Source: a virus. From it: a DNA stretch of 44,686 bases. Below, one piece after another: positions 20,627 through 33,901 of the stretch. Below the pieces are notes generated by a model. It did no database searches and was not told the origin of the DNA. It saw nothing but the letters and a program-made list of their open reading frames with translations. The position numbers and the translations under genes are program-made. Location: IMG/VR virus record IMGVR_UViG_3300032285_001187, positions 1 to 44,686 of that record; one strand, written 5' to 3'. Position 1 is the stretch's first letter. Every line of letters begins with the position of its first letter.

Positions 20627-20844
20627 TTGCCATCCTTTATTTCTGTTTCAATGTCGGCCAGCAGGTCAGGATCAAGCAGATCCATAACGTCCACGCCCTC
20701 GTGCATCACCGAAGTGATCTCAACAGTGGCCGGATAGTCTGGCTCCATCTGAATGCCGTTGACACGCAAGGCAATATCTTCAGGCTCGTAGTCGTAATCA
20801 ACCGTCAACATTCGCCCCTCGCCAGCGTCGTATAAAGTCCTCAT
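20623..20844 (-). CDS. Hypothetical 73-aa acidic protein, first gene of the early minus operon
   Basis: MRTLYDAGEGRMLTVDYDYE then PEDIALRVNGIQMEPDYPAT and DVMDLLDPDLLADIETEIKD. Very acidic. The ATG follows AAAGGAGTGAGCG, 32 bp downstream of the TATAAT box, so it is the promoter-proximal gene of the operon that runs to the primase. Similar openings (RxLYDxxEGRxLxVDYDY) occur in phage proteins of unknown function. Confidence 0.6.
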   Translation of the reverse strand: MRTLYDAGEGRMLTVDYDYEPEDIALRVNGIQMEPDYPATVEITSVMHEGVDVMDLLDPDLLADIETEIKDGK

Positions 20845-20868
20845 CGCTCACTCCTTTGTTGTAAGTAT

Positions 20869-20884
20869 GTGTAGTATTATACAC
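20869..20884. promoter_or_regulatory. Inverted repeat over the -10 box (GTGTA-N6-TACAC)
   Basis: GTGTA (20869-20873) and TACAC (20880-20884) are perfect arms separated by six bases, and the TATAAT box of the minus promoter lies between and within them. A dimeric repressor bound here would block the early operon. The small HTH protein at 20241 is a candidate, by position only. Confidence 0.4.
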
Positions 20885-20904
20885 TAAGTTACAGAAAGTT
20901 GAGT
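20876..20904 (-). promoter_or_regulatory. Promoter of the early minus-strand operon
   Basis: Perfect TATAAT on the minus strand (20881-20876); the -35 region at 17-bp spacing is ACTCAA (20904-20899), which is poor, so activation or another factor may be involved. The 15-bp element shared with 8152-8166 abuts the -35 region. Confidence 0.6.
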
Positions 20905-20918
20905 AGGTGAAAACCCTT
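20904..20918 (-). repeat. 15-bp element AAGGGTTTTCACCTA, copy 2
   Basis: Same bases as 8152-8166, here on the minus strand directly upstream of the early promoter. Orientation relative to the transcribed operon is the same in both cases. Confidence 0.4.
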
Positions 20919-20945
20919 GCTAACCTGTTATTTATATCGAGACAT

Positions 20946-20973
20946 TTGCTGACGTCTACGCATGATGTATTAG
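20946..20973 (+). promoter_or_regulatory. Weak candidate promoter for the large structured RNA
   Basis: TTGCTG and TATTAG at 16-bp spacing on the plus strand, just upstream of the first stable hairpins. Both boxes match the consensus only partly; offered because the base-pairing pattern favours a plus-strand transcript. Confidence 0.25.
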
Positions 20974-20984
20974 TAGAGTGTGGA

Positions 20985-21730
20985 GTAATGTGGCGTTTAC
21001 CTGACTCCGAGTGAAGTGAGTGGGCTTCGGAAGGCAAAGATATGCCTAGGGGAGAGCAAGCCCTCCACCTATAGCCTTACCTGACTCGTCGCTCGTTCGA
21101 TCGCCATCTCAGGGGGTGCGTAAAGTTGTTCGCCGCACCCTATCTCCCAGTGTTATCCGCCCAACAAGCGGCATTCCCTAACCACACCACCGGGAGGCAA
21201 CTTTACCCTCGCCACCGTGTACCGTCTCAATGAAGGACTGGATTGGTATAGCTACTCTATGGTCACGCTATCCCTATGCGCTCGGAGGGGGAGGCTTCTG
21301 TCCGAGATACGATACAAGCCAGAACTGTAGTTGACTCTGCTCCTTGGGGACTACGCTTTCTTAACCCTCTCGGGCTACCGATACCATGACGTATGACGGC
21401 TACTCGCTTCCTCTACCCTCAGTATGAAATCTTTCCCGATAGACTCTTGTATCGGTTGTCGTAGGAGGTGGAGACTAGAACGGCTCACATAGAGCAGTGT
21501 TTTTCAAAACGTTTACCCGCAAGCTGTGGGTTGTGGTGGCGCTAACCCATCCACCCGTTCTAGTTCCAAAAACAAAAAAGGCCATTTACAACTACGTTCC
21601 GGTTGTGACCTTGCCTAATATCTCTCCCACGAAAGTATTGGGTAAGGCGGAACGTATGTGTAAATGGCCTAACTTGTCGCTCACAACAGCAACACCGCGT
21701 TTATACCAAACGTTTGTCGCTGTGTCAAGG
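20985..21730 (+). ncRNA. Large structured non-coding RNA (about 750 nt) with pseudoknots
   Basis: No credible protein gene lies here, yet the stretch is dense in complementary segments. Seen: AGGCA/TGCCT (21032/21043); TAGG-GGAG/CTCC-A-CCTA (21047-21071); GGGTGCG/CGCACCC (21114/21134), whose loop TAAAGTTG pairs with CAACTTTA at 21198, a pseudoknot; CCGC/GCGG (21157/21168); CTCGGA/TCCGAG (21281/21301); CCGATA/TATCGG (21436/21450); ACTAGAACGG/CCGTTCTAGT (21474/21555); a 92-nt arm with 12-, 9- and 12-bp helices (21579-21670), whose bulge GTTGTGA pairs with TCACAAC at 21681. G.U pairs in the last helix and in 21516-21532 exist only in the plus-strand RNA. Size and tRNA neighbours recall GOLLD or ROOL RNAs; family not established. 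Confidence 0.6.
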
Positions 21731-21738
21731 ATTATTTT

Positions 21739-21811
21739 GGGGTGGACGGGGGAGTCGAACCCTCGCTGACGGAATCACAATCCGCCGTGCTACCACTACA
21801 CTACGAACACC
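21739..21811 (-). tRNA. tRNA-His (anticodon GUG)
   Basis: Anticodon arm GCGGA-TTGTGAT-TCCGT with anticodon GTG, D-arm with AGTGGTAG, T-loop TTCGACT. The acceptor stem is irregular: GGTGTTC against GTCCACC leaves two mismatches, the T-stem has one A.C mismatch, and the 3' CCA is one base short or absent. It may be partly decayed, or rely on host repair and processing. Confidence 0.75.
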
Positions 21812-21826
21812 GTAGCGGTCAATGAT

Positions 21827-21904
21827 TGGTCTGGGTGGCAGGATTTGAACCTGCGGCCTCCGCCTTCCAAGGGCGGCCGTCTACCGGGCTGACAATACAC
21901 CCAG
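21827..21904 (-). tRNA. tRNA-Pro (anticodon UGG) with encoded CCA
   Basis: Perfect seven-pair acceptor stem CTGGGTG/CACCCAG, followed by A and encoded CCA. Anticodon arm CCGCC-CTTGGAA-GGCGG gives anticodon TGG. T-arm GCAGG-TTCAAAT-CCTGC is perfect. It lies 15 bp upstream of tRNA-His in the same direction, so the two are probably cotranscribed. Confidence 0.9.
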
Positions 21905-22135
21905 AGATAATCGGTCGAGGAAGTGAGGTTTTCATGATGAACGGATTGTAAACTTAAAAACGTCGATTGGATACTTAAAAATTGTTGGTGGCCATAACCG
22001 ATTTCTTCAAGCGAGAGAACGAGTCCGTTCGTCGGCACCCAAGGCGGGGTGAACTTAGTTTCACCAACACGGCTGAGGACTGTTCCGGGCCTCCGGGTAC
22101 TCCCAGAGGACAATCCCCATGCGTGTTGTCTCCCG
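21905..22135 (-). other. Second structured non-coding segment upstream of the tRNAs
   Basis: No protein gene. Pairing segments: TGTTGGTG/CACCAACA (21983-21990 with 22062-22069), GAACG-AGTC-CGTTC (22017-22030), CACCC/GGGTG (22036-22051), GGTGAA-CTTAGT-TTCACC (22048-22065), and on the minus strand CCTCTGGG-AGTA-CCCGGAGG (22093-22112), whose T.G wobble favours a minus-strand RNA. The second-last hairpin and the first long stem use the same bases, so they exclude each other, as in a switch. It would be the 5' leader of the tRNA transcript or part of a larger RNA. No family recognised. Confidence 0.4.
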
Positions 22136-22163
22136 AAAAAAGTGGCCCCAACTAAGGAGCCAC
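22136..22163 (-). terminator. Intrinsic terminator after the VRR nuclease gene
   Basis: On the minus strand GTGGCTCC-TTAGTT-GGGGCCAC (eight pairs, one wobble) is followed by six T. It lies 55 bp after the stop of the nuclease gene and separates it from the tRNA region. Confidence 0.75.
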
Positions 22164-22218
22164 GAATCCAACCTAAGGAGAAAGCAACGAAACATCCAGC
22201 CCTCTGGTTGGCCGGATT

Positions 22219-22506
22219 CTAATCGCAGTGTTGCAACGTTGCAAGACTTTCTTCAACAGAATTTACGATTACCAACATTCCGCCAGTCCATTCATCAAAA
22301 AACTTCTGCTCCGCCTCCGTCAACTTACGCGCCGACGGTGGTTTATTCCCGTCTTTCACTTCCATCAAGATCGTGTATCCCTTGTACGCCACCAGCAGAT
22401 CCGGTATGCCATCACCCTGAGAGATGATCCTTACCACCGCGCCCGCCTTGCGTAAAGCCTTGACTATTTCATTTTGATTCTCGTCAATCCGGTTTGCGTA
22501 TCTCAT
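22219..22506 (-). CDS. VRR-NUC type PD-(D/E)XK nuclease
   Basis: 95 aa from the ATG at 22506 with TAGGGAAGACC before it (an ATG at 22527 would add seven residues but overlaps the -10 region). EIVKALRKAGAVVRIISQGD, then GIPDLLVAYKGYTILMEVKD and a final helix with LTEAEQKFFDEW. The GIPDLL Asp and the EVK of LMEVKD are the catalytic PD and ExK of VRR-NUC domains, structure-specific DNA nucleases related to Holliday-junction resolvases. Probably resolves recombination or replication intermediates, acting with the divergent recombination operon. The last codons overlap palindromic site C. Confidence 0.85.
   Translation of the reverse strand: MRYANRIDENQNEIVKALRKAGAVVRIISQGDGIPDLLVAYKGYTILMEVKDGNKPPSARKLTEAEQKFFDEWTGGMLVIVNSVEESLATLQHCD
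22228..22247. promoter_or_regulatory. Palindromic site C, GTGTTGCAACGTTGCAAGAC
   Basis: One mismatch from the perfect 20-bp palindrome, located over the last codons of the VRR nuclease gene. The 14-base core TTGCAACGTTGCAA is perfect. Confidence 0.55.
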
Positions 22507-22529
22507 GGTCTTCCCTACATATTGCATTT

Positions 22530-27736: not shown

Positions 27737-30700
27737 TCAGAGTTTTGCCATTGCTCTTAGTTCTTTGGTATTGATAGCCTTGAGCATATCCAATTCAACC
27801 GCCCTTAGTTCTTTGATGGTTGCCTGCTTCTCGTCGGCTGTCATCACATTTCTTGGGGCGTTGGTGATCTGACTGATGTTCTTACGAATCTTCCCAAGCT
27901 GCTCTGTAATTTTAGAGACAGACTTAGACAATCCGTAACGCGCCATGATCTCTTCGCTGGACAAATACTTTTCAATCTGCTCAGGATTCTTCTGCTTCAG
28001 ATCTGACATGGTGTTGGCAACCTTGGCCACTTCATCACGCAGAACATAGAAGTCATTCTTAAGACCTGACTCATATTCGCGTGACACAAAGCCACTGGTT
28101 CCGGGCAAAGCGGCGGCGGCATCTTTCCATGACATCGTTGGACGATCAATGTTTGGATCGCTGTGCAACAACGGATTGGTGATGTAAACAGCCAAGCCGC
28201 CAGCAGAGCCGAACATACCGCGCAGGATGTGGTCGATGGCGATCGGTGACATGATGCCAGTGCTACCCATCAGCTTGGCCAACTCAGAAGTTGTATCCGT
28301 GAACTGGCGCTCAGTCTCTTTCATCTTCTCAAAGTGACCAATCAATGGACGGCCAGAGTAGAAGTCATAGTTAATGCCGATCTCCACCAAAGGCTTGAAC
28401 GCCTGCGGCACAACAGTCGGGCTGAACAAAGCAGACTTCAGCACTGCGGCCATAGAGTCACGGAACTTACGGCCATCCTCATAACCCTTGTCAGTCATCA
28501 TCAAGTACATGTGCTCGGTGACGATCTTTGGAACGGAGAACAAGTCACTACGAATTGGAATGCTCAGGCCGCCAGTGCCGGGGATCATGAGCAAGCGGTC
28601 ACGCACAACAGCTGGCTTCTTCAAATAGTCATCATCATCGCCATTCATCATGGCATAGAGCAGAGAAAGCACCATGACCGAGGCGGTAGTACCGGCCAGA
28701 GTTTTAATTGCTTCTGAACGCTCTGTTGGAGATGTGCCTGCGCCGCTGATTGTTTTAAGTGCAACGTTCTGGGCGGCAAGGTAAGCGCTAAAGAATGGGA
28801 TGACCTGACCAGCAATCGCCAAGGACTTGCTTGTACCCTTGCGGCGCACGTTCCAGATCTCAAACGCTTTCTCAATAGCCTCACCACGGCTCATGCCCTG
28901 AGACATCGCGGCTTCATAGGTAGCCTGACGAACAGCATTGTCGGAGGCCATAGCAATGTGAGACAGAAAACCTTTTAGCTTGCCACCAAATCCGGGAGGA
29001 GCTTTCAGACCTGCATAAACTTCAGCATCCAAACGAGCCATCGCGGAGGTAAAGTCGCGCACGCCGACAACACCAAATGATTTCAATTCCTCATGCGTTT
29101 TGCTTGTCTTGGTCAGTGTTCTTAAGAACTCTTTGGCCGCAAGAGCTGGGATTCTCAGGGCGTACTGAGCCTTAAGACCAGACGAGAACATAGCAGCAAA
29201 CGAGTCTTGTGGTAGCTGAGCAACAGAGAACAGCGGATACATCACCACTGACTGGCGAAGCATATCGGAGAGCTTAGACGCCCACTTCCATGTTGGGATA
29301 GCAATAGATTCCAAGCCGGTAAAGGCTTCCACAAACATGGGATCGGCCATGCTGTAGAACTCTTCCTTACCATTACGCCAGACGCGAACAACGTTGTCGC
29401 CTTCTGCACGTTTGGCAATCTTCTTAGCCATGCCCGAATCAACAGCGGTATCAGTCAAAGCCAAAGCGGAGCGGTTACGAACAGCACGGTTAACCGAATA
29501 CTGCATCCAGCGAGCCATGTTGTCGAATACATCGTTAACTGGCTTGGCAGAGCCGGTAAGTTTCTTTTCTTTAGCCTGAACCATCAAGCCACGGATATAT
29601 TCCTTGGGGCCTTTGCCTTCTTCAATCTGCTCTTCTCGGAAGAACGGAACATAGTCAGCATTGTCCAGCAAGAACTCAGCTTCTTCTTTGCTCCATAACC
29701 CCGTTTCCACCAAGATATTGGCAGTGTTCTCCCGCATCTGATTCCAGACGCCAGAAATCTTATCCAACTCAGGCATCAGCTTGAACAATGAATTGCCTTC
29801 ATTGATCTGTGCATCTGTCATGTGGATAAACTTCTTATCCTTTAGGCGATTGGTAGCCTTCTCAAACAAAGCGCTGGCCGCGACAGGACTGCCACGCTTA
29901 CGCAAATTGGCCGCCTCGGCACGCATGGCCGCAACTTCCTGCTCAACCTGCAAATTAAAACTGACCATTGACTTCAAGCGACGGGCTTCGAATGCAGTGT
30001 GTGCAATCGTGTCAGCCATCTCTTTATTCAAGCCATGGTTCTTAGCCAACTCATCCAAACCTTTAGACAAGGTCACAAAGTTAGCATCGTCCTTTACGGC
30101 AACCCACTTGTGAAGATTTTCGTCATAACGCAGATTACCCTCGGTCATCAGCAAACTGGCCAAGGCATCGGCGTGAACAGTCTGGCTCAAGCTAACATTC
30201 AGCAGCGTGCCAATCTTATCGGCGCTATCCTTGTCCGAACTCATGATCTCTTCGCGAATGCGGTTGTTTAAAGCTGCATCGCTAGAGAATGACCATGTTT
30301 GAACGCGATCATTGAAGCGTTTGATGGCGGCAATGGCTGCGTCTTTGGTTGTCTTTGGATTGTCCAGAGCGTTGTCCCAAGACTTACGAGCCTTCTGCAA
30401 GTAACTCTCCGTGGGCTTCTCAGCCTGACGACCCATGCGGGTAAGCGTATCCAAAGCCTGCTGACCACTAGATGCAGGAATAACACCTTGCTTGGCGGCA
30501 AGAGTTTCTCTTACGGCCTTACTAAACAATGACTGCTGTGCACCAGAAGTAGCGCGTATCTTGCCGGGGCCAAAGTTGTAGCCCTCTAGGTGTGCGCCAT
30601 CTCTGGTATCTTCAATTGAAATGTCAATGATCTGATCGGCTGTGCGAACCAAGCGGTCAAGCGCAGTCTCAAACGGCTTAGCAATACCAAGGACTTGACG

Positions 30701-33700
30701 AACCAAATCAATCAGCTTGCTAAATACAGTCTTATCTCCAACCTTTATATCGGTCAAATACTTCTGCATCCGCTCGTCTGTCAAACCCCAAGACACCAAT
30801 TCATCCGGCGTGGCAAAAGCATTATTGCGATTTTGGAAGAACATCTTGCCAATCTCTGGCAATGTCCCAGCTTTCTTTTCTTTTAAAACGTTTGCGGACA
30901 CTACCTCATAAAGCGCACGCAACTCTTTGACGATTGGATTGCTACCACTTAAGAAGCGCAACTGGCCGCGAGTGGCAACGTGCAAAAGCTCATGCAAAAC
31001 AATCGTATATGTACATCCGGGCGGGAAGTTGGTTTGCTGCTTTGCATTTGTCGCACCATTCAACTTGATGTTGATGGTTGTATCTTCGCCCTTTGCCCGT
31101 CTTCCAAAATAAAAGTTGGTAACACCATTGGCAAACTCAAGCTCAGATGAACGTCTATTACCAGTGGCAATATCAAACCCAAAGCGAACACCACTTCGCT
31201 CCATCTCACGAATCTTTTCGTAAGCCTTCTTAGCAAAGTGCTTGGCAAATGCGTTGGGAGCATTGTCAACAGCCCACTTCGCAACCTGCGCCATGGTCTT
31301 GCCGGTCAGCTCTTTCTCAACCCTGATGTTTTCTGCGGTTGTGACGTAATGGGTACCGTCTTGACTGAGTGCAGGCAGAACATCTGTCTCGCTATTCTTA
31401 ATTGCATCGCGAGTCAACTCACTTACGCGGTCATGGTAAGCATCTTCAGGTTGACCCCTCGTTTCCTCAAAAGCCTGCTCAGTAATAGCGGATGTATCAA
31501 TGCCAAGATCAGCAGCTTTGTCCAAATGATTCTGGGCAATCTCTTGGGGCGTAACGGGATAACCCATTTCCTCAGCCACGGGAGACTTTAGATTTTCAGC
31601 AGCCTCTTTAAGCTCAAAAGCTTTATTCTGAGTTTTAGTTTCTCTTTCAGCAGAAGTCTCTTCGCCCTCTGCGGACAGAGCATTTTTCTTAATGGCATCA
31701 ATAACTTCACTGTGACTAGCTTCTTCTGGCAAATATCCAGCGCTAACCAAGCGTTCTTTTGCTTGCTCAAAGCTCATGCCGGTAGGGGAGAACATATAAG
31801 CCATACCATGCTTATAGTTTCCGCCTGAGTTCATGTCGGACATGGTGTCCATGCTCAGGCCGCCGTATCTAGCAATGTATTGGCCAGCGCCAAGCGGCTC
31901 ACCCGCCTTGCCACCAACATTTACAACAGCACGATTCCTAGCAACTTCAGCTTCTCTATCCAATTCCTCTTGCGTCTTTGGAGTAAGGACATAACCCTGA
32001 TTTTTCTCCAGCTTCAACGGCTTAAGTGTCGGCTGAAGCTTTGCAGCCGCGACAGCCTGACTGCGATCCGAGAAAGGTGCGGCACCCTCTGAGATCAATT
32101 GATTGTCAATGCCAATGTTCTCAGGATTGCTTGCCCGATCAGCTGGCTTAACTGGCTTTGGAGCCTCCTGAATACCAAGGGCAGCACGCTCTTCTGGAGT
32201 CCATTTACCTTTAAACCCAGCTTCTTTCTTTGGCTTGCCAGCAGCCTCAGCAGCGGCATCTTCAATTCGTTGACGCTCTTCAAGCTGAGCCTTTACAGAA
32301 GCGGCATCTTTTTCCTCTGGCGATAAAGCAGACCATTCTTCAGCGGTAATACGCTTAACTTGCGGCGCATATTTAGCTTGAAACTCTTGCTCTGGATTGA
32401 GAAGGACTACTCCTTCTGAAGTAATCTTTGGAACGCCGGGCAATGGTGAATAGCCAAGCTGAGGTGGAACTTCAGAAACTTTTGCCTGATTTAAGTTTGG
32501 CTGAGCTGCATACTTCTTCTCAAACTGTTCTTGCTCGTAAGCATCCAAGTCTGATTTAGTAAGAGCAACAGATCCATCAGGCAACGCAACGGGAGTAAAC
32601 GGCTCAGACAAACCAAGCGCCAGCGGCGGCCTCTCGTCGGCTGGTTGAGCTTCATATTTCTTTCTGAACTGCTCTTCTTCGTAACGCTTAATATCTTCTG
32701 GCGTCGTGGCAACAGAGCCATCTGGGAATACGCGAGGAGTAAATGGCTCAGATACGCCAAGCGCCAATGGTTTCTTTTCTGGCTCTACTATCTTTTCTGC
32801 TTCTGGTACGGCTGGTGCTTCTGTTATTGGGCGACCACTACGAATACCACCAAGAGCACCAAGACCACCAGCGCCAATAGTTGCCTGAGCCGCAGTCTGA
32901 CCCAAGCCCTCAGTTAATGATTGCTCTGGGTTAACTTGCTTCATTGCAATGTTCTGCAACAAGCGACCACCAACTTCCTCAACGTTCTCGCCGGGAGCTT
33001 CTTTGGCCGCGCCAATTACAGCGCCAGTTAAACGACCCATGCCGGTACGCTCACCAGCCAACGCACGTTCAAATGCCTTGGCACCGGGTAACTTCTGAGC
33101 CAACAAAGACAATCCAGCACCACCCAATCCGGCAGCACGAGCATAGTTAATTGTTTCGTCCGCCGCCTGCTCAGGACTCATGCGCTTAGTCTCGGTCAGG
33201 TACTTATACATAGCATCATAAGTACCAGCACCAACGTCAGCACCTTGCTGGACGGCGGCAGTGCGAACAGCGGCAGTAGCGCCACGCTCAATAACATCCT
33301 GCTTACCCTTGTTAATAGCGGTAGCAAGCGCCTGTTCAGCAGCTTTCTTAACAACGTCGTTAGTGGCAGCCTTGGCGGCCAGTTGCAAACTCTTGATTTC
33401 AGCGGCAGCTTCAGGGCCAATGCCGGGGATCAGCGCAGCAACCAAAGATGGAATGGCTTGAGGAACCTGCTCAACCAAGAAAGAACTAAGCAATGCTGGA
33501 TCTTTGACAGTCTCAAGAAAGCTGGTTTTAAACGCACCAAGCTCACCCTCTTTTTGAGCCGCTTCTTTGGTCTTTGCTTCAACTGCGGCTTCTTTTGCAA
33601 GCAATGCCTGAGACTTATTAGCTTTGGCATAGTCTTGCATTTCTTGACCGATGCCATACAGACCCGTCTTAGCAAAGTCAGGCTCTTTGATTGCACCAGT

Positions 33701-33901
33701 GGCTAGGCCATAGATCTGACCGGGGAACTGCGCTAAACCACCAAGACCTGAGATGGCGCTGGCCGCCAAGTCAGTAGGCACTTCGCTCCAAGAACGCTCT
33801 GGGATTGGCTCTTCCTTTTTCTTTCCAGCAACTGGATCGTTAGACCACCATGCGTTGTCGCTTTTAGCAACCGCATCATTTTCCCAGAAATTCTTTGCCA
33901 T
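27737..33901 (-). CDS. Giant 2054-aa virion/ejection protein with zincin motif
   Basis: The largest gene, last of the late operon. Residues ~1-350 are Ala-rich and helical; ~350-800 are low-complexity with repeated EPFTPxxxPDGS segments. Near residue 970 TIVLHELLHVATRG is an HExxH metallopeptidase motif, followed about 70 residues later by ATPDELVSWGL with an acidic residue that could be the third ligand. The C-terminal 500 residues hold hydrophobic segments (GQVIPFFSAYLAAQNVAL, TTASVMVLSLLYAMM) of the type found in large polyvalent, DNA-ejected proteins. It probably enters the cell with DNA, opens a path or protects DNA. It is not a tail fibre: no receptor-type repeats are seen. Confidence 0.65.
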   Translation of the reverse strand: MAKNFWENDAVAKSDNAWWSNDPVAGKKKEEPIPERSWSEVPTDLAASAISGLGGLAQFPGQIYGLATGAIKEPDFAKTGLYGIGQEMQDYAKANKSQALLAKEAAVEAKTKEAAQKEGELGAFKTSFLETVKDPALLSSFLVEQVPQAIPSLVAALIPGIGPEAAAEIKSLQLAAKAATNDVVKKAAEQALATAINKGKQDVIERGATAAVRTAAVQQGADVGAGTYDAMYKYLTETKRMSPEQAADETINYARAAGLGGAGLSLLAQKLPGAKAFERALAGERTGMGRLTGAVIGAAKEAPGENVEEVGGRLLQNIAMKQVNPEQSLTEGLGQTAAQATIGAGGLGALGGIRSGRPITEAPAVPEAEKIVEPEKKPLALGVSEPFTPRVFPDGSVATTPEDIKRYEEEQFRKKYEAQPADERPPLALGLSEPFTPVALPDGSVALTKSDLDAYEQEQFEKKYAAQPNLNQAKVSEVPPQLGYSPLPGVPKITSEGVVLLNPEQEFQAKYAPQVKRITAEEWSALSPEEKDAASVKAQLEERQRIEDAAAEAAGKPKKEAGFKGKWTPEERAALGIQEAPKPVKPADRASNPENIGIDNQLISEGAAPFSDRSQAVAAAKLQPTLKPLKLEKNQGYVLTPKTQEELDREAEVARNRAVVNVGGKAGEPLGAGQYIARYGGLSMDTMSDMNSGGNYKHGMAYMFSPTGMSFEQAKERLVSAGYLPEEASHSEVIDAIKKNALSAEGEETSAERETKTQNKAFELKEAAENLKSPVAEEMGYPVTPQEIAQNHLDKAADLGIDTSAITEQAFEETRGQPEDAYHDRVSELTRDAIKNSETDVLPALSQDGTHYVTTAENIRVEKELTGKTMAQVAKWAVDNAPNAFAKHFAKKAYEKIREMERSGVRFGFDIATGNRRSSELEFANGVTNFYFGRRAKGEDTTINIKLNGATNAKQQTNFPPGCTYTIVLHELLHVATRGQLRFLSGSNPIVKELRALYEVVSANVLKEKKAGTLPEIGKMFFQNRNNAFATPDELVSWGLTDERMQKYLTDIKVGDKTVFSKLIDLVRQVLGIAKPFETALDRLVRTADQIIDISIEDTRDGAHLEGYNFGPGKIRATSGAQQSLFSKAVRETLAAKQGVIPASSGQQALDTLTRMGRQAEKPTESYLQKARKSWDNALDNPKTTKDAAIAAIKRFNDRVQTWSFSSDAALNNRIREEIMSSDKDSADKIGTLLNVSLSQTVHADALASLLMTEGNLRYDENLHKWVAVKDDANFVTLSKGLDELAKNHGLNKEMADTIAHTAFEARRLKSMVSFNLQVEQEVAAMRAEAANLRKRGSPVAASALFEKATNRLKDKKFIHMTDAQINEGNSLFKLMPELDKISGVWNQMRENTANILVETGLWSKEEAEFLLDNADYVPFFREEQIEEGKGPKEYIRGLMVQAKEKKLTGSAKPVNDVFDNMARWMQYSVNRAVRNRSALALTDTAVDSGMAKKIAKRAEGDNVVRVWRNGKEEFYSMADPMFVEAFTGLESIAIPTWKWASKLSDMLRQSVVMYPLFSVAQLPQDSFAAMFSSGLKAQYALRIPALAAKEFLRTLTKTSKTHEELKSFGVVGVRDFTSAMARLDAEVYAGLKAPPGFGGKLKGFLSHIAMASDNAVRQATYEAAMSQGMSRGEAIEKAFEIWNVRRKGTSKSLAIAGQVIPFFSAYLAAQNVALKTISGAGTSPTERSEAIKTLAGTTASVMVLSLLYAMMNGDDDDYLKKPAVVRDRLLMIPGTGGLSIPIRSDLFSVPKIVTEHMYLMMTDKGYEDGRKFRDSMAAVLKSALFSPTVVPQAFKPLVEIGINYDFYSGRPLIGHFEKMKETERQFTDTTSELAKLMGSTGIMSPIAIDHILRGMFGSAGGLAVYITNPLLHSDPNIDRPTMSWKDAAAALPGTSGFVSREYESGLKNDFYVLRDEVAKVANTMSDLKQKNPEQIEKYLSSEEIMARYGLSKSVSKITEQLGKIRKNISQITNAPRNVMTADEKQATIKELRAVELDMLKAINTKELRAMAKL

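Follow-up and report, generated by a model that had tools for sequence, protein, structure and literature searches.

Large structured RNAs of phages are few, and their functions are mostly obscure. GOLLD sometimes has tRNA neighbours and consists of one conserved and one variable half, while ROOL is an RNA of phages and prophages that contains pseudoknots and sometimes lies near tRNAs (PMC12286853). On a smaller scale, the putL element of phage HK022 is an RNA element of ~70-100 nt positioned directly after a promoter (PMC9378689).

The RNA described here occurs in a phage genome from freshwater. The window, meaning the whole stretch of DNA analysed, is one virus record, 44,686 bases long, whose virion genes include terminase and portal. 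It also encodes a large polyvalent protein of 2054 aa that contains an LPD38 domain (27737-33901, minus strand). Judged from comparison of related sequences, a structured RNA of about 700 bases beside two tRNA genes is real and evolutionarily conserved. It adjoins tRNA-His (21739-21811, minus strand) on one side and is bounded on the other by the next leftward gene (start 20844, minus strand). Three modules can be recognized in the alignments: a pseudoknotted arm (M3b), an element of ~95 nt (M3a) and a domain of ~450 nt (domain A).

Like GOLLD, this is a large, ornate, many-helix RNA of phage or prophage origin (PMC12286853), but here the shared part is the 5′ part, the exchanged part is the 3′ domain, and tRNA neighbours are rare. 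With ROOL it shares a similar size, pseudoknots and an origin in phages, and differs in its architecture, its association with HNH genes, its own promoter and an early U tract. M3a resembles the HK022 putRNA in being a short phage RNA element just 3′ of a promoter, and stand-alone copies of M3a do lie just after σ70 promoters; however, putRNA is made of two stem-loops, whereas M3a has a closing stem and two hairpins with fixed loops, as well as stand-alone copies with an immediate terminator. Finally, HEARO, the omega RNA of IscB and IsrB (RF02033), is also a structured RNA immediately 5′ of an HNH-domain ORF that is sometimes absent, but the HNH proteins found here are small and without RuvC, the genomic place is fixed, and no guide was seen.

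Covariance models gave a consistent answer. Rfam 15 found only two tRNAs in the whole window, and a permissive scan of 20850-22230 added only two weak matches far below gathering scores. The GOLLD model (RF02032) had no match even at E≤10; ROOL (RF03087), OLE, HEARO and the group I and II intron models in Rfam had none either. A search for ROOL by name was also negative, a result that is weak alone since the control genomes lacked ROOL. The initial annotation had left open whether this was GOLLD, ROOL or a new class; the known families named in it (GOLLD, ROOL, OLE and HEARO) found no match, and the RNA and its relatives form several modules that match nothing in Rfam. The style is a known one, that of ornate phage RNAs and promoter-proximal leader RNAs, and the RNA matches neither the GOLLD nor the ROOL model. 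Proximity to a tRNA island of the GOLLD/ROOL kind is seen only in the window and in 4 of the 46 loci scanned: a tRNA Pro/His pair adjoins the element in the window, L012, L030 and L035, other tRNAs do so in L021, and the remaining 42 loci have none beside it. The tRNA neighbours that had been pointed out are therefore genuine in the window and a few loci, and are not a conserved feature of the RNA element.

Conservation and strand of the RNA

The expectation that the region would fold better than shuffled sequence was borne out, as 20985-21735 beat 20 of 20 dinucleotide shuffles on each strand (z = -4.13 and -4.14); such scores alone give no choice of strand. The region is retained, without coding for protein, by dozens of related phage contigs, and compensatory changes in it are abundant. 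Its lack of a credible gene was likewise upheld, given that gaps between relatives in alignment A2 (1 and 16 nt) are not multiples of three, and no conserved protein is present.

Relatives were collected through a small nuclease gene at 22219-22527 (minus strand), here termed VRR-NUC, which is the syntenic upstream neighbour and retrieved 80 related viral loci. Its PHROG match is an endonuclease, and a Pfam match to Hjc fell below cut-off. Conservation at the DNA level is piecewise, with M5/domain A in few loci and M3a and M3b in ~40 loci each, and since the pieces occur in varying combinations, the make-up of the region is modular. Exchangeable RNA parts of this kind recur in many uncultured phages. 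Among cultured phages, blastn with the whole region found only short stretches, which among the matches listed lay over the tRNAs, and domains A, B and C (B and C being alternatives to A, described below) had no match in the collection searched. A full-text literature search with the loop sequences returned only unrelated subjects.

A second structured stretch lies nearby on the minus strand (21981-22128). It contains a hairpin, CAACACGCAUGGGG..CCUCAGCCGUGUUG, at 22065-22128 and a GUUGGUG..CACCAAC element; the two have GUUG in common, so only one can be fully formed at once. The same hairpin is seen again beside M3a in many loci (L026, L066, L154).

The initial annotation had read the RNA from the plus strand, opposite to the flanking genes, and this had to be reversed. 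In M3b, the minus strand has 157 G.U against 32 A.C pairs. With G.U and A.C given equal treatment, the plus strand of M3a has 117 G.U against 256 A.C pairs in P1 and 39 against 143 in P3. Domain A gives 114 G.U against 5 A.C on the minus strand, although that strand was also the one used to predict its fold. A plus-strand RNA is now scarcely credible: two plus-strand G.U pairs do occur in the inner helix of the window's arm, and at the position on which that reading had relied (pair 72/104 in alignment A3) many relatives have a minus-strand A.C, but the counts for M3b and M3a favour the minus strand, and the promoter and gene order disagree with the plus strand as well.

The promoter is a near-perfect σ70 sequence on the minus strand at 21700-21728, immediately ahead of the first hairpin (H1), with TTGACA at 21723-21728, a 17-nt spacer and TATAAA at 21700-21705 (11 of 12 consensus positions). 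A consensus promoter scan overlooked it because the scan requires T at the last -10 position. Promoters matching at least 10 of 12 positions precede domains A, B or C in 46 of 73 relatives, as opposed to 19 of 397 random stretches. Taken together, the minus-strand excess of G.U and this promoter place the predicted start of the RNA near 21693, from which it would run leftward, the same direction as the tRNAs and VRR-NUC. By pair statistics, promoter and synteny, then, the RNA is read from the minus strand. It is extremely improbable that the conserved structures instead act in DNA, as origin hairpins would. The location between leftward and rightward gene blocks and the strong inverted repeats could suit such a role; against it stand the strong one-strand bias of G.U over A.C, the placement of the promoter and the conservation of unpaired loops, and the GC skew tracks gene direction.

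The 5′ modules M3b and M3a

M3b begins with hairpin H1 (21676-21693, minus strand), a GUUGC-loop-GCGAC structure with 99.5% of cells paired and double changes. There follows an arm at 21580-21669 (minus strand), in which covariation supports an outer helix, GGCCAUUUACA/UGUAAAUGGCC, a middle helix and an inner hairpin. The arm, originally drawn at 21579-21670, is paired in 97.1% of cells, and 15 of its 19 pairs show double changes. The H1 loop (21681-21687) forms one strand of a 7-bp pseudoknot with the arm strand 21602-21608, a pairing that was correctly anticipated: it is Watson-Crick in 301 of 301 cells, or 100% paired, among 43 sequences, with as many as four pair types at one site. Over the named M3b fold, 95.7% of cells in the 43 sequences are paired and 34 of 43 pairs show double changes; the covariation score of 0.440 exceeds both the 0.206 of shuffles and the values for slid partners, which reach 0.114 at most. 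An exact pattern made from the window's arm had no matches, because the arm's sequence varies while its pairing is maintained. In fact, even at loci with dissimilar arms, loop-to-arm complementarity of at least 7 was found in 18 of 26, compared with ~21% with shuffled tails, in a test whose automatic choice of hairpin was rough. Directly 3′ of the arm is a terminator-like U tract, U6GU5 (21568-21579, minus strand), three T columns of which are invariant in the alignment of 43 sequences.

M3a (21467-21565, minus strand; model R1 61.6 bits, E 5.7e-17; covariation in alignment A1) is a three-helix element of ~95 nt. It consists of P1, a hairpin with GGGUUAGCGCC (21538-21548), a linker and a hairpin CACUGCUCUAUGUG (21486-21499), both hairpins on the minus strand; GGGUUAGCGCC and CACUGCUUYAUGUG are near-invariant. 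At least 120 viral contigs contain the plus-strand pattern CACATRAAGCAGTGN{18,48}GGCGCTAACCC, as do 8 contigs of bacterial genomes. In an alignment of 84 diverse copies, 86% of cells in the three helices are paired, and the covariation score reaches 0.531 against 0.161; in four copies the CAC/GUG helix has become CGC/GCG, both sides changing together. The conservation of the loops is partly imposed by the search pattern, and copies found independently of it, via VRR-NUC, have the same loops.

In many contigs a TTGACA-N16-TATAAT-like promoter precedes M3a, and a start codon follows 24-52 nt 3′ of the element. The genes that follow are unrelated and, as named by eye, include a recurring IKIRDK protein, Cro-like and glutaredoxin-like proteins, and others. 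The int-alpA RNA (RF02996) lies near M3a in L142, L141, L129 and L116, scoring above the gathering threshold only in L142.

Bacterial copies of M3a are sporadic, occurring in 2 of 151 genomes of the Curvibacter genome's family and 2 of 399 of its order. The Curvibacter copy (L206/L234) occupies the gap before gyrA, in the orientation opposite to that gene. One bacterial genome has three copies (L233, L235, L236), each followed directly by a GC-rich hairpin and a T run, and these are apparent stand-alone RNA genes of ~100 nt. Three M3a-like matches with one common core (L202, L203, L204) come from MAG and genome contigs whose assigned bacteria are unrelated; they are possibly contamination and do not form part of the M3a alignment.

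With a promoter, a hairpin and a U tract, M3b has the parts of a complete sRNA gene, and M3a and domain A are each found without the other. It is conceivable, then, that two units adjoin here: an sRNA of ~125 nt (M3b) terminated by its own U tract, and a separate, weaker transcript containing M3a and domain A. This is improbable, as no promoter was seen in the stretch from M3b to M3a/A, and the order is conserved, with M3b ahead of A, B and C alike.

Exchanged 3′ domains and neighbouring HNH genes

Domain A (20996-21458, minus strand) is ornate, ~450 nt long, and has at least eight covarying helices in alignment A2 (19 sequences). Across eight of them, 96.1% of cells are paired and 29 of 48 pairs show double changes; the domain also includes a near-invariant stretch of ~20 nt. 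The GGGTGCG hairpin singled out at the start does covary, as helix 7, but the second proposed pseudoknot, between its loop at 21121-21128 and 21198-21205, did not hold up as a conserved pairing: it is kept in close relatives and broken in others, with 113 Watson-Crick and 17 G.U pairs against 29 mismatches and 12 A.C. With the covariation of the remaining structure, the broader claim of a large, pseudoknotted, non-coding phage RNA is supported. Domain C has 53 predicted pairs, with double changes at 38, in 20 sequences. Domain B is kept in ~34 loci, some of them partial, and its fold is less well resolved than those of A and C. In some members of type C (L039, L037 and others) there is a T-arm-like hairpin, GUGGGUUCAAGUCCUGC.

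All three domains share a strand with VRR-NUC and nearly always lie 0.4-2.2 kb downstream of it, the order being different in L072, L081 and L082. Between the constant flanks, VRR-NUC upstream and the HTH gene c20241 downstream, are found A (the window, L010), B (L011, L006) or C (L003, L007, L014, L005). The same flanks with different domains indicate that the 3′ domain has been exchanged between phages.

A same-strand HNH ORF (PF01844) lies after domain A at 12 distinct loci and after domain C at 9, and in many loci its start codon abuts the 3′ edge of domain A. The HNH proteins are 117-200 aa long; Pfam gives HNH only, and no RuvC domain was found in them. No HNH gene follows domain A in the window, and B loci are also without one. 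Together with the swapping of A, B and C, this linkage might suggest a selfish cassette, HEARO-like or intron-like, whose large domain would serve as a ribozyme or as the partner of a protein, with the HNH protein responsible for the spread of the RNA. Such a cassette is rather unlikely, however. The HEARO and intron models do not match, and the RNA does not lie directly upstream of an IscB-family ORF, the ORFs at A and C loci being small and of HNH type only. Moreover, no variable guide stretch was seen beside domain A, B loci do without the gene, and the element keeps one syntenic place; an inverted repeat follows the HNH gene in L022, but no 3′ intron half was seen.

In the 220 nt that follow the domains, terminator-like sites were seen in 0 of 18 cases for A, 3 of 19 for B and 4 of 23 for C, with a background of 58 of 300. 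A stand-alone type B transcript with a 3′ terminator had been suspected by eye, and such sites are not above background.

A possible leader with a built-in attenuator

What comparison among relatives establishes is the minus strand, the pseudoknotted arm, the three-helix M3a, the covariation within domain A and the swapping of 3′ domains as modules. The most likely role, with a probability of roughly 0.4, is that of a structured leader that acts in cis and contains its own attenuator. The RNA's own σ70 promoter would drive leftward transcription from near 21693, and the product would act mainly in cis as the long 5′ leader of a leftward transcription unit. Within its first ~125 nt, the pseudoknot-braced hairpin and the U tract would form an intrinsic terminator, such that M3a and the large domain would be made only by polymerases that get past the U tract, and their target would then be either the polymerase as it passes or the message downstream. 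The 3′ domain and its optional HNH gene would be swapped as a cassette, probably via HNH-driven homing, and in the window phage the HNH gene of the cassette would be missing.

Several observations support the leader: the U tract follows the arm in all 43 sequences, M3a elsewhere follows strong promoters and precedes the first start codon of unrelated genes, and the HNH start codon is at the edge of domain A in many loci. The absence of any excess of terminators after the domains would also fit transcription that runs on into the next gene. Against this, a domain of ~450 nt with a near-invariant stretch of ~20 nt far exceeds what attenuation requires. The need for a leader is not obvious in the window, as the next gene, which starts at 20844, has a predicted early promoter of its own after domain A (TATAAT, 20876-20881, minus strand). 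Nor is a two-state switch evident, since the pseudoknot and the terminator hairpin can coexist, and an antiterminator role for M3a fits poorly with the terminator directly after it in one bacterial genome.

The close rival of the leader, somewhat less likely, is a stand-alone ornate RNA of the GOLLD/ROOL type. It would be a discrete and abundant molecule of 400-700 nt, acting in trans or as a particle, with M3b and M3a as its 5′ domains. Its size, pseudoknot, many helices, phage origin and tRNA neighbours at a few loci all suit it, as does the window's retention of domain A without an HNH gene. Less compatible are the lack of enrichment of 3′ terminators, the strong U tract ~125 nt from the start, the many loci with an HNH start codon directly at the 3′ edge of A, and the failure of the GOLLD and ROOL models to match.

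A bolder proposal, and quite an unlikely one, would have modular phage RNAs with a promoter-pseudoknot 5′ module and interchangeable, ribozyme-sized 3′ domains that travel as HNH-linked selfish cassettes, the RNA being either catalytic or an obligate partner of HNH; M3a would then be a general leader element that modifies RNA polymerase or the fate of the RNA.

This group of RNAs combines strong covariation with a defined strand, a predicted start, constant flanks, natural domain swaps and no match in Rfam, and these features make its function testable by comparison and by the swapping of parts. M3a in particular, being compact, having near-invariant loops and preceding unrelated phage genes, would lend itself readily to reporter and binding assays.
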